The translations under genes and the position numbers were made by a program. 64,000 bases of DNA, taken from an uncultured Bacteroidota bacterium (GTDB lineage: Bacteria > Bacteroidota > Bacteroidia > Flavobacteriales > Flavobacteriaceae). Location: positions 1 through 64,000 of the forward strand of contig CACKBZ010000001.1 in the NCBI GenBank assembly GCA_902598525.1, in the 5' to 3' direction. Below are positions 54,171 through 62,294 of the stretch, one piece after another. Position 1 is the stretch's first letter. Each line of letters opens with the position of its first letter. The notes under the pieces are model-generated. The model made no database searches, had not been told where the DNA came from, and saw only the letters and a program-made list of their open reading frames with translations.

Positions 54171-54175
54171 TTTCC

Positions 54176-54278
54176 AATAGAGGAAGGATTTGACTGATTG
54201 CAACCTCTTAAAAAAATTGCTAAAGCAGTAATTCTTTTAAAGCAATCACGTCTTCTTTTTCCTCACAAATTTAAAATT
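54176..54278 (+). promoter_or_regulatory. Structured 5' leader of metK, candidate SAM-responsive riboswitch
   Basis: Nested complementary arms: P1 GAGGAAGGA (54180-54188) with TTTTTCCTC (54256-54264); P2 GACTGATTGC (54192-54201) with GCAATCACGTC (54242-54252), one bulged C; P3 TTAAAA (54208-54213) with TTTTAA (54235-54240); P4 TGC/GCA around TAAA (54218-54227). An alternative helix AGAGG (54179-54183) with CCTCT (54204-54208) excludes P1. GCAACC and TGCTAA recall the S-box core, but the rest does not match it, so the class is open. The 3' arm of P1 lies 15 bases from the ATG. Confidence 0.55.
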
Positions 54279-58204: not shown

Positions 58205-58235
58205 TTTGATATTTTAAATACCTATCATACTTTTG
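58205..58235 (+). promoter_or_regulatory. Promoter of the pheA operon leader
   Basis: TTTG (58205-58208), a 19-base spacer and TACTTTTG (58228-58235), an exact fit to the Bacteroidota two-element promoter. The leader-peptide ATG follows after 7 bases. Confidence 0.7.
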
Positions 58236-58242
58236 TTAAGTA

Positions 58243-58302
58243 ATGAAACAAAATTTTAATTTTTATTATACATATTACTTCTCTCATCAGAAGGCAGGAT
58301 AA
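58243..58302 (+). CDS. Aromatic amino acid operon leader peptide
   Basis: A 19-codon reading frame, MKQNFNFYYTYYFSHQKAG, with Phe at positions 5, 7 and 13 and Tyr at 8, 9, 11 and 12. Seven of 19 codons are for the two end products of the operon it precedes, which is the hallmark of a ribosome-stalling leader. The aromatic run ends just as a 5-bp hairpin begins (CTTCT 58278-58282 with AGAAG 58289-58293), and the last codons supply the antiterminator arm. The ORF is not preceded by a Shine-Dalgarno motif and probably starts within a few bases of the mRNA end. Confidence 0.82.
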   Translation: MKQNFNFYYTYYFSHQKAG

Positions 58303-58330
58303 TTATGTGTAGTAAAAAATAAAATATAAT

Positions 58331-58358
58331 AGTCCTGTCAAATCAGGACTTTTTTTTT
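58331..58358 (+). terminator. Attenuator terminator before pheA
   Basis: A perfect 7-bp stem AGTCCTG / CAGGACT with a TCAAAT loop and a run of T to 58358, ending two bases before the pheA ATG. Its 5' arm can instead pair with GGCAGGA (58293-58299) at the end of the leader peptide frame, as TCCTGTC (58333-58339), forming the antiterminator. Confidence 0.88.
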
Positions 58359-58360
58359 AT

Positions 58361-59170
58361 ATGAAAGTGTCAATACAGGGAATTAAAGGTTCTTTCCATC
58401 ATATGGTGGCAAATGAGTACTTTGAATCTTTTGAATTACTAGAATGCTCAACCTTTGAAAATCTTGTTAAATCAATTGATAAGGAAGAATCTGATTTTGG
58501 TGTTATGGCAATTGAAAATTCAATTGTTGGATCAATACTTCCTAATTATGCACTAATTGATGAGTATAATTTATATATAACAGGAGAACATTATTTAAAT
58601 ATAAATCATAATTTAATGTGTCTGGCTGGGCAAAAAATTGATGAAATCTATGAAGTGCAATCACATCCAATGGCTTTACTTCAATGTTCAAAATTCTTTA
58701 ATAATTACCCTAATATTAAATTAATTGAGAGCGAGGATACAGCTTTATTTGCAAAAAAAATCAAAGATGAAGGAATGCTGGGTGTTGCTGCTATTGCAAG
58801 TAAAGATGCTTCAGAAATATATAATTTAGAAATTCTTAACGAGTCAATACAAACTATAAAAAATAACAAGACAAGATTTGTGATTCTTGAAAAAAAGAAA
58901 ACTAATGATGAATTCAATAAAGCTGCACTAAAGTTTATTCTAGATCATAAAAGAGGAAGTTTAGCTTCAGTTTTAAACATGATGAGTGATTGTAGTCTAA
59001 ATCTTACTAAGATTCAATCTTTACCAGTAATACAAACACCTGGCAAATACGCTTTTTTTGTTGATATTACTTTTAATTCAGTAGATAATTACACTAAAGC
59101 AAAAAAAATTATTGAGATAATGGCTCAAGAATTTAAAGTTTTAGGTGAATATAAAATTAAAGAATTATGA
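58361..59170 (+). CDS. pheA: Prephenate dehydratase
   Basis: Converts prephenate to phenylpyruvate for phenylalanine synthesis. A 269-residue stand-alone enzyme: N-terminal GIKGSFHHMVANEYF, VMAIENSIVGSI, the catalytic TRF motif (NKTRFVILEK), and a C-terminal ACT domain from about residue 190 with KRGSLASVLNMMSDCSLNLTKIQS that should bind phenylalanine for feedback control. No chorismate mutase is fused here; it is fused to the DAHP synthase two genes on. It is directly downstream of the attenuator and overlaps tyrA by 4 bp. Confidence 0.96.
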   Translation: MKVSIQGIKGSFHHMVANEYFESFELLECSTFENLVKSIDKEESDFGVMAIENSIVGSILPNYALIDEYNLYITGEHYLNINHNLMCLAGQKIDEIYEVQSHPMALLQCSKFFNNYPNIKLIESEDTALFAKKIKDEGMLGVAAIASKDASEIYNLEILNESIQTIKNNKTRFVILEKKKTNDEFNKAALKFILDHKRGSLASVLNMMSDCSLNLTKIQSLPVIQTPGKYAFFVDITFNSVDNYTKAKKIIEIMAQEFKVLGEYKIKEL

Positions 59171-60015
59171 ATGTAGGTGTAATTGGCCTGGGATTAATTG
59201 GAGGGTCTATAGCTTTAAAGATTAAGGAAATTGATACAAATACAGTTATCTATGGACTTGATAAAGATATGGACTCAATGAGTTATTCTTTAAGCAAAGG
59301 TATAATTGATAAAAAACTAGATATTAATTCAATTGATAACCTAAAATACATTTTTATTGCAATACCTGTAGATGCTATCAAAAGTGAAATAGAGTCAATA
59401 TTGAATAAAATCTCAAATGATACTTTGGTTGTTGACTTGGGTTCAACAAAGTATGAAATTTGTAAAAGAGTAGTAGATCATACTAATAGAAAAAATTTCC
59501 TAGCAGCTCATCCAATAGCTGGTACTGAGTTTTCAGGTCCATCAGCTGCAACTAAAAACCTTTTTGATAACAAAGTTTTAATTCTTTGTGAAACAGAAAA
59601 AACTGATCAAGACTTATTATTAAATGCTTTAAAAATTTTTGATTTGATGAATATGAATATTATCAACATGGACTCTATTGAACATGATAAGCATATAGCA
59701 TATGTTTCACACCTATCTCATATTTCTTCTTTTATGTTAGGAAAGACTGTTATGAACAAAGAAGAGGACCAAGATACAATTTATGATATGGCTGGGAGTG
59801 GATTTGAATCTACTGTTAGGTTAGCAAAGAGTTCTCCTGAAACATGGGCATCAATTTTCGTAGAAAATAAAAACAATATTGTTGAATCACTTAATGAGTA
59901 TATCTCCAATATTAATAATTTTAAAATTTTAATTGAAAACGGTGATAAAGAAAATTTAAGTGCTGAAATGAAAAAAATAAATGGTATTAAAGAAATACTT
60001 AACGGAATTAAATAA
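59167..60015 (+). CDS. tyrA: Prephenate dehydrogenase
   Basis: NAD(P)-dependent step to 4-hydroxyphenylpyruvate for tyrosine. Rossmann motif VIGLGLIGGSIAL at the N-terminus, VDLGSTKYEI, the substrate-site AAHPIAGTEFSGP, and the helix SHLSHISSFML. Length 282 without an ACT domain, so feedback control may rest on the attenuator and DAHP synthase. It overlaps pheA (ATGA) and is 6 bp from the next gene. Confidence 0.95.
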   Translation: MNVGVIGLGLIGGSIALKIKEIDTNTVIYGLDKDMDSMSYSLSKGIIDKKLDINSIDNLKYIFIAIPVDAIKSEIESILNKISNDTLVVDLGSTKYEICKRVVDHTNRKNFLAAHPIAGTEFSGPSAATKNLFDNKVLILCETEKTDQDLLLNALKIFDLMNMNIINMDSIEHDKHIAYVSHLSHISSFMLGKTVMNKEEDQDTIYDMAGSGFESTVRLAKSSPETWASIFVENKNNIVESLNEYISNINNFKILIENGDKENLSAEMKKINGIKEILNGIK

Positions 60016-60021
60016 ATAATT

Positions 60022-61104
60022 ATGGAAAATAAAAAAGAGTTTAGAAGTTGGTTAGACAAAATGAATCTAGGGCACCCATTGGTTATAGCTGGACCTTGTA
60101 GTGCTGAAACTGAAGAGCAAGTTTTAAAAATCGCTCATGACCTTAAAGACACGGATGTATCTGCATATAGGGCAGGAATATGGAAACCTAGAACTAGACC
60201 TGGTATGTTTGAAGGTGTTGGTGCAATTGGTTTAAACTGGTTAGAAAAAGTTAAAAAGGAAACCGGTCTTATGATTGCAACAGAAGTTGCAAATTCGGTT
60301 CATGTAGACCTTGCACTTAAACATGATGTTGATATATTATGGATTGGGGCTAGGTCTACGGTATCTCCATTTATTGTTCAGGAAATTGCAGATGCACTTA
60401 AAGGAACTGATAAAATTGTTTTAGTTAAGAATCCAGTTAATCCCGATTTAGCTCTTTGGCTGGGTGGTATTGAGAGAATTTACTCTTCAGATATAAACAA
60501 AATCGGAGTTATACACAGAGGATTCTCATCCTATGATAAATCTAAATATAGAAATAATCCAGAGTGGCAAATTGCAGTTGAACTTCAAAATAATTTTCCA
60601 GATCTACCATTAATATGTGACCCATCTCATATTGCTGGAAGAAGAGATTTAATTTTTGATTTAAGTCAATCTGCACTAGATTTAAATTTTGATGGGTTAA
60701 TGATTGAGACACACTGTGATCCAGATAATGCATGGAGTGATGCTGCTCAACAAGTAACCCCTGAACGATTAATAGAAATAATGAAAGATTTAACAATTAG
60801 AGAAAAGACTGCAGAAGGTGAAGATTATACAAATAAACTAAATAACCTTAGATCTCAAATTGATGTTGCAGATCAAAATTTATTGTCAACATTTGGAAAA
60901 AGGATGGAAGTTGCAAAAGAGATTGGTCAGCTAAAATCTGATAATAATGTAGCCATTTTACAAAATAAAAGATGGAATGAAATTCTTGGAAAGATGATTT
61001 TAGATGGTGAAGAACATGGGTTAAGTGAAGAATTCATTTTAAGAGTTTTTAAAGCAATTCATCAAGAATCAATTAATAATCAAAAAAAAATATTAAATAA
61101 ATAA
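60022..61104 (+). CDS. Bifunctional DAHP synthase / chorismate mutase
   Basis: A fusion enzyme: residues 1-260 are a DAHP synthase barrel of the KdsA-related type (VIAGPCSAETEEQVL, AGIWKPRTRPGMFEGVG, VKNPVNPD, CDPSHIAGRRDL), and residues 270-360 are an AroQ-type chorismate mutase (NLRSQIDVADQNLLSTFGKRMEVAKEIGQLK). It joins the first step of the shikimate pathway to the branch toward Phe and Tyr, which fits the operon. Fused forms of this order are well known in Bacteroidota and Bacilli relatives. A PLP aminotransferase gene follows 8 bp on. Confidence 0.95.
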   Translation: MENKKEFRSWLDKMNLGHPLVIAGPCSAETEEQVLKIAHDLKDTDVSAYRAGIWKPRTRPGMFEGVGAIGLNWLEKVKKETGLMIATEVANSVHVDLALKHDVDILWIGARSTVSPFIVQEIADALKGTDKIVLVKNPVNPDLALWLGGIERIYSSDINKIGVIHRGFSSYDKSKYRNNPEWQIAVELQNNFPDLPLICDPSHIAGRRDLIFDLSQSALDLNFDGLMIETHCDPDNAWSDAAQQVTPERLIEIMKDLTIREKTAEGEDYTNKLNNLRSQIDVADQNLLSTFGKRMEVAKEIGQLKSDNNVAILQNKRWNEILGKMILDGEEHGLSEEFILRVFKAIHQESINNQKKILNK

Positions 61105-61112
61105 TCTATAAA

Positions 61113-62294
61113 ATGTTATCAGATAAAATAAAGTCTTTGCCGATATCTCAGACTGTTGCAATGACAGCTAAAGCACATGATTTAAAAAACCAAGGAATAG
61201 ATGTTATAACTCTAAGTGCAGGTGAGCCTGACTTTAATGTTCCAGATTACATAAAAGAAGCAGCAGTTGAAGCTATTAACGATAATTATCATAAATATTC
61301 TCCAGTTGATGGTTATCTTGATTTAAAAAAAGCAATTTGTAAAAAATTTAAAAGAGATAACAACTTAAATTATGATGTAGACCAAATAGTTGTTTCGACA
61401 GGGGCAAAACAATCAATTGCAAATGTATGTATGTCACTTATTAATAAAGGTGATGAAGTTTTAATACCTACACCATATTGGGTAAGTTATAGCGCTATGG
61501 TTGAACTAGCTGAAGGAGTACCTGTATTTATAAATCCTGATGAAGACTCAAATTATAAAATTACTGCTCAACAACTTGATTCTGCAATTACAGATAAAAC
61601 CAAAATGTTGATGCTTAATTCACCTAATAACCCAAGTGGATCAGTTTTTACTGAACAAGAATATCTTGAATTTTCAAAAGTTCTTTTAAAATATCCGAAT
61701 ATAATTATAGTGTCAGATGAAATTTATGAACACATAAATTATGGAGTAAAATCTGTAAGTTTTGCAAGCTTACCCGGAATGTATGATAGAACAGTTTCTG
61801 TAAATGGAATTTCAAAAGCCTATGCAATGACTGGTTGGAGAATAGGTTATTTGGGAGCGCCTAAAGTAATAGCTAAAGCTTGTAACAAAATGCAAGGTCA
61901 AATAACAAGTGGAGCAAATTGCATTGCTCAAAGAGCTACAATTAAAGCACTTGAAGAGTCTCCTGAAAAAATTCAATACATGGTTGACGAATTTAAGATT
62001 AGAAGAGATTTTATAATAGATCTTGTAACAAAAATTAATGGTTTTAATATTAAACAACCACCCATGGGGGCATTCTATATTTTTCCAAATATTTCAGAAT
62101 TATTTGGTAAAACATTTAAGGGTGTAACTGTAAATAATGCAAATGATTTATCAATGCTTATTCTTGAAAAAGCACATGTAGCAACAGTTCCTGGAGACGC
62201 TTTTGGTTATCCTAACTGTATTAGAATTTCTTATTCGGCTTCAAGAGAACAAATTGAGGAGGCAATAAAAAGAATAAAAGACTTATTATCTTGA
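61113..62294 (+). CDS. Class I/II PLP-dependent aminotransferase (aspartate/aromatic type)
   Basis: Probably performs the last transamination to Phe or Tyr, given its place. A 393-residue fold-type I enzyme with LSAGEPDFNVPDYI, the Y/H/K substrate segment KYSPVDGYLDLK, NSPNNPSG, the Schiff-base lysine K235 in NGISKAYAMTGWR and IRISYSASREQIEEA. The sequence is closest to AspC-like subgroup Igamma, so aspartate may also be a substrate. Its TGA overlaps the TTG start of rsmG. Confidence 0.94.
   Translation: MLSDKIKSLPISQTVAMTAKAHDLKNQGIDVITLSAGEPDFNVPDYIKEAAVEAINDNYHKYSPVDGYLDLKKAICKKFKRDNNLNYDVDQIVVSTGAKQSIANVCMSLINKGDEVLIPTPYWVSYSAMVELAEGVPVFINPDEDSNYKITAQQLDSAITDKTKMLMLNSPNNPSGSVFTEQEYLEFSKVLLKYPNIIIVSDEIYEHINYGVKSVSFASLPGMYDRTVSVNGISKAYAMTGWRIGYLGAPKVIAKACNKMQGQITSGANCIAQRATIKALEESPEKIQYMVDEFKIRRDFIIDLVTKINGFNIKQPPMGAFYIFPNISELFGKTFKGVTVNNANDLSMLILEKAHVATVPGDAFGYPNCIRISYSASREQIEEAIKRIKDLLS

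Follow-up and report, generated by a model that had tools for sequence, protein, structure and literature searches.

A predicted Phe/Tyr attenuator upstream of the flavobacterial pheA operon, its conservation in the family, and related leaders with Trp codons

The pheA operon and its leader region

The window, a 64,000-nucleotide stretch of contig from an uncultured marine member of the Flavobacteriaceae, carries an operon of four genes on its + strand: pheA (58361-59170), encoding a monofunctional prephenate dehydratase with an ACT domain (PF00800, 188 bits; NCBIfam prephenate dehydratase models); tyrA (59167-60015), encoding prephenate dehydrogenase (NF006307, 344 bits against a cut-off of 295); a gene for a fused DAHP synthase/chorismate mutase (60022-61104; PF00793 and PF01817); and an aminotransferase gene of the aspartate/aromatic type (61113-62294; family models). 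The family models thus bear out the gene order given in an initial annotation of this DNA, with DAHP synthase and chorismate mutase as a single fused protein. PF00793 has one further match in the assembly and, because that protein looks like a KDO-8-P synthase when its sequence is judged by eye, the operon probably holds the genome's only DAHP synthase, a statement limited to the assembled part of a genome that is 79% complete. Upstream lies the gene group metK-metZ-metX-osmC, itself preceded by a SAM-II riboswitch (54174-54233, 79.5 bits).

The pheA gene is preceded by a Bacteroidota sigma-A-type promoter (58205-58235, + strand), recognised by its sequence, its conservation in the genus and the box position in Flavobacterium psychrophilum. 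It consists of a -33 TTTG (58205-58208), a 19-nt spacer and a -7 box, TAcTTTTG (58228-58235), and so agrees with the TTTG-N19-TAnnTTTG element originally proposed; across 17 genus members the whole promoter is kept and the -7 box is invariant. In the F. psychrophilum mapping the -7 box occupies positions -12 to -5 from the transcription start (PMC9723704), and transcription is on that basis predicted to start at ~58240, ~3 nt 5' of the leader AUG. The box-to-AUG gap is 6-9 nt throughout the genus and has a median of 17 nt in other genera.

The leader ORF, MKQNFNFYYTYYFSHQKAG (58243-58302, + strand; ATG at 58243, TAA stop at 58300-58302), has 19 codons and, with a predicted 5' UTR of ~3 nt, would be translated from a nearly leaderless RNA. 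It is short and rich in codons for products of the pathway: as the initial annotation had it, 3 Phe and 4 Tyr codons lie between codons 5 and 13 (F5, F7, Y8, Y9, Y11, Y12 and F13). Seven aromatic residues in nine codons were equalled in only 3 of 5,000 dinucleotide shuffles of the same DNA.

Between the leader ORF and pheA lies an intrinsic terminator formed by strand 3 (AGTCCTGTC, 58331-58339, + strand) and strand 4 (CAGGACT plus T-run, 58344-58358, + strand). Its arms, AGTCCTG and CAGGACT, occupy 58331-58337 and 58344-58350, and the T-run, with nine T, reaches 58358, ending 2 nt 5' of the pheA start as had been described. Strand 3 can instead pair with the core of strand 2 (GGCAGGAT, 58293-58300, + strand) in an antiterminator, GGCAGGA(T) at 58293-58300 with (G)TCCTGTC at 58332-58339; both the GGCAGGA/TCCTGTC pairing and its exclusivity with the terminator had been proposed earlier and are upheld by pairing and folding, the two structures sharing strand 3. 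The 3' part of strand 2 (58304-58318, + strand), whose 5' end lengthens the antiterminator, is also the partner of strand 1 (58260-58274, + strand; codons 6-11) in a long-range helix of 15 bp including G-U pairs, and this protector 1:2 pairing competes with 2:3. Relative to shuffles, the folding z-score is -5.1 for the leader and -5.4 for the strand 2-3 region, and a search of 801 bases of the + strand returns one terminator only, where shuffles give 0.2.

The small local hairpin CTTCT/AGAAG (58278-58293, + strand; arms 58278-58282 and 58289-58293) is present in sequence and folding as first noted. As a candidate for the competing 1:2 structure it was rejected, since in folding it forms alongside the antiterminator and is compatible with antitermination. 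The initial view of a textbook layout for ribosome-mediated attenuation is therefore essentially right, except that the protector is the long-range 1:2 helix and not the small hairpin.

Conservation, covariation and spacing among relatives

We gathered pheA loci by protein similarity, disregarding the leader, and then read their upstream DNA. An aromatic leader followed by a terminator is present at all 23 same-genus loci and at 109 of 114 loci from other genera of Flavobacteriaceae; overall, ~95% of the pheA genes examined in flavobacteria share this type of switch. The aromatic frame and the terminator, on whose conservation in relatives the initial annotation had staked its reading, are thus both kept. 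The combination is less frequent in the wider class than in the family and was found at 0 of 9 pheA loci in distant phylum members, an automatic count that runs low outside the family, where a few clear leaders, among them those at L044, L051 and L157, are visible on reading. Within the genus, leaders vary in length by multiples of three only and the terminator arms are invariant, with strand 2 weaker (5 pairs) at L002 and L006. Family leaders are 23% F, 15% Y and 3% W by residue; F and Y occur in all of them and at least one W in 77 of 109. Cultured carriers include Gelidibacter mesophilus DSM 14095, Psychroserpens mesophilus JCM 13413 and Leeuwenhoekiella parthenopeia. A covariance-model search of the window's own genome gave no convincing second copy among its weak matches, most of which were read.

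At L124 (G070 contig 1), the family's exception, pheA is distant from the DAHP synthase gene and has neither leader nor terminator, and at L054 (G059 contig 25) two tandem Phe-rich leaders, each with its own terminator, precede pheA.

The pairings co-vary between lineages. Strand 3 appears as GTCCTG, GTCTCG, GTCCCG, ATCCCG, ACCCGG, GACCGC and other variants that strands 2 and 4 track, giving 85 distinct 2/3/4 triples in 119 loci when the count is restricted to positions that pair in both structures. Strand 2, selected by best score, matches the strand 3 of its own locus more strongly than the strand 3 of other loci (17.7 versus 13.7, permutation p<1e-4), a result that holds with one locus per strand-3 class. 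The 1:2 helix, which joins early leader codons to bases around the stop codon, likewise scores 17.6 for own and 14.5 for cross pairings over the 119 loci (permutation p<1e-4); the loci share descent, and both p-values overstate their independence.

The distances are those expected of a switch worked by a ribosome. The median distance from the last aromatic codon of the cluster, counted from its first base, to the start of strand 2 is 14 nt (IQR 12-15). A ribosome extends to ~+12 nt from the codon in its A site, and one that holds this last codon there would reach about as far as the start of strand 2. The stop codon lies ~15 nt past the start of strand 2, so a ribosome there would cover strand 2. 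The spacing would therefore let a stalled ribosome free strand 2 and a ribosome at the stop codon cover it; in the window, the strand 2 core falls right at the front of a ribosome halted among the clustered aromatic codons and beneath one that has reached the stop codon.

The same loci bear on the idea that the architecture acts chiefly on translation, with pairing setting ribosome access to pheA. Strand 4 and its U-run end just 2 nt before the pheA AUG in the window, and the distance from the end of strand 4 to the start codon is a constant 10 nt in the genus, as such a mode of control might lead one to expect; across other genera, however, it ranges from ~14 to 130 nt and so falls outside the conserved design, and a long T-run is a usual mark of a terminator. 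We regard a chiefly translational mode as unlikely, and favour control at the level of transcription.

Ribosome position and the predicted switch

For the window we modelled the fold of the RNA ahead of a ribosome set at each leader codon. With codons 7-13 in the A site, the modelled probability of the antiterminator is 0.84-0.99; from codon 15 onward, or with no ribosome, that of the terminator is 0.97-0.98. Full equilibrium folding detects a switch in the window's own leader and in 30 of 123 loci (0 of 123 controls), with the terminator winning in most relatives, so that the decision must there be assumed to fall during transcription. Such a kinetic, co-transcriptional decision is usual for attenuators. 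As most loci fail the equilibrium-only test, it was dropped in favour of a co-transcriptional one, in which each of the 123 loci is folded when strand 3 has just been made. In this model, upstream RNA ties up strand 3 at 0.99 with the ribosome anywhere in the aromatic run, at 0.91 one codon past it and at 0.11 two codons past it. Gating of this kind appears in 112 of 123 real leaders and in 17 of 123 shuffled ones, which as a set have no such step.

These results weigh on a simpler account, in which the hairpin does no more than end transcription of the upstream met operon (metK-metZ-metX-osmC) and the ORF arose by chance. The attenuator does contain the sole terminator-like site found in the osmC-pheA interval of the + strand and may also stop upstream transcripts. 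AT-richness raises the share of Phe, Tyr and Asn codons, and shuffles reach at least 7 aromatics in ~6% of upstream regions. Against this, more than 100 genera keep the aromatic frame, the promoter, strand 2 and the spacing, with covariation, and the excess of gating in real over shuffled leaders would have no place in such an account, which we consider highly improbable.

We conclude that the leader is very probably (a probability of roughly 0.93) a ribosome-mediated transcription attenuator, with charged tRNA-Phe and tRNA-Tyr as its signals and pheA, tyrA and the DAHP synthase/CM and aminotransferase genes under its control. The evidence is sequence, conservation, covariation, spacing and predicted folds, and from it we infer the stalling, the read-through and the response to amino acids. 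Transcription would start ~3 nt 5' of the leader AUG. Under shortage of Phe or Tyr, the ribosome would wait in codons 7-13 and cover strand 1, and strand 2, just ahead of it, would pair with strand 3, letting RNA polymerase read on. When both are plentiful, the ribosome would reach the stop codon and cover strand 2, leaving strand 3 to pair with strand 4 and transcription to end. With no ribosome, 1:2 plus 3:4 is predicted to be the most stable fold and untranslated leaders should terminate. Since Phe and Tyr codons both fall within the effective stretch 7-13, shortage of either amino acid should release the operon.

Trp leaders and relation to known systems

Sixteen genomes of the family have no match to the PheA family (PF00800) and none over cut-off to the TyrA family (PF02153), although some of these absences are assembly gaps and one genome (G109) has an apparent tyrA end on a cut contig. 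Eight of them have trpA and readable DNA before the DAHP synthase gene, and in seven of the eight that gene is preceded by a leader containing Trp codons, which stand in tandem in six cases (for example MYNTSLYWWHPYKL, MTTRSNFWWHHITN and MTNNNTWWSNSKFYLKR); a terminator comes next, with strands 2, 3 and 4 of the same type. Among pheA/tyrA-less genomes that also lack trpA over cut-off, a Trp leader before DAHP synthase was found in 0 of 6 (7/8 versus 0/6, Fisher p 0.005). In the same model as above, these leaders mostly keep strand 3 occupied when the ribosome is at the Trp codons and free it near the stop, the release being weak in L227 and L230.

The seven Trp leaders may share one ancestor. 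More broadly, we think it fairly likely that the leaders form a class-wide Bacteroidota attenuator lineage in which one leader reads two to three aromatic amino acids, and in which loss of pheA and tyrA, leaving DAHP synthase to serve Trp only, was accompanied by the rewriting of Phe/Tyr codons to tandem Trp with strands 2, 3 and 4 kept.

Short leaders with terminators were also seen before other genes. In the window's own genome, the leader MINLNTYWWCKHGK (L221; G000 contig 14) stands before trpE-trpG-trpD, headed by a trpE-like gene, with a GCTTGTC/GACAGGC-T7 terminator. In a genome without pheA and tyrA, the leader MKNLNNTYYYYPILTRRIGQ (L203; G089 contig 4), with four consecutive Tyr codons, and a terminator precede a gene for a biopterin-dependent aromatic amino acid hydroxylase (PF00351). 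The leader MYFINLHHHHFHICSSGEVKRVCCM (L218; G100 contig 4) is rich in His and is followed by a terminator and hisG. A Met/Cys-rich leader, MNKNLNIMCRCMMCINYAGDTIV (L208; G027 contig 4), lies with a terminator before metZ-like (Cys/Met metabolism enzyme) and metX-like genes, where the window's genome has the SAM-II riboswitch. L207 and L210 (G073 and G068) are related short leaders with Cys-rich endings (EGRCFCI and IWICRC, respectively) and terminators, preceding orthologous-looking MFS transporters.

The leader falls outside the Rfam family Phe_leader (RF01859), scoring 33.5 bits against a gathering cut-off of 55, and 20 relatives likewise gave no match at gathering level; some relatives have weaker sub-threshold scores. 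The layout is nevertheless the same. Rfam bears equally on direct control of the terminator by a ligand, tRNA or protein (riboswitch, T-box or TRAP-like), with the peptide incidental. Outside this phylum such elements govern amino-acid genes, and this very window has a SAM-II riboswitch farther upstream, but neither here nor in the 20 relatives does any Rfam riboswitch or T-box reach gathering score, and the T-box and riboswitch readings of the pheA leader were rejected. Direct control would also not account for a spacing so tightly matched to the size of the ribosome or for the change to Trp codons, and we judge it the least probable of the alternatives to a leader peptide read by the ribosome.

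The predicted attenuator shares with the Escherichia coli pheA (pheL) and trp attenuators a leader peptide of cognate codons, the 1:2, 2:3 and 3:4 pairings and a terminator before the biosynthetic gene. Unlike these, it mixes Phe and Tyr codons (with Trp too in many relatives), has a Bacteroidota promoter, a predicted 5' UTR of ~3 nt and no Shine-Dalgarno sequence, and would cover pheA, tyrA and DAHP synthase jointly. The trpL leader of Sinorhizobium meliloti is also an attenuator leader ORF on an RNA that starts at or near its AUG and is leaderless (PMC7298713); that system is alphaproteobacterial and reads Trp only, and the start at the AUG was measured there and is predicted here. In 2010, Naville and Gautheret described leader-peptide systems, apart from ermC, as known only from Proteobacteria and Actinobacteria, and themselves added a Firmicutes hisS case (PMC2965389).

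The closest precedent is a 2021 transcriptome of F. psychrophilum, a member of the same bacterial family, which describes a structured 5' element upstream of the same gene, pheA. The element matches nothing in Rfam and is conserved in further genera of Flavobacteriaceae, and the paper sees strong clues that amino-acid operons are preceded by leader-peptide attenuators (PMC9723704). Because it names both the element and the clues, that work anticipates this kind of attenuator and probably this family element; its main text is silent on peptide, pairings, covariation, spacing and leaders that switch amino acid. The initial remark that few attenuators are documented in the phylum accordingly needs qualifying for pheA, although the literature searched held no description of a Bacteroidota pheA attenuator beyond this one. 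It also held no four-strand model with covariation, ribosome-sized spacing across genera, mixed Phe/Tyr/Trp codons or Trp leaders in genomes without pheA.

The analysis thus offers a precise attenuator model for a phylum that initiates translation without Shine-Dalgarno sequences and for which we found only brief mentions in the literature. The spacing shows the extent to which selection tunes such switches to the footprint of the ribosome, and the cultured carriers make the attenuator testable. The exchange of Phe/Tyr for Trp codons in genomes without pheA and tyrA is, in effect, a natural experiment on what attenuators sense.
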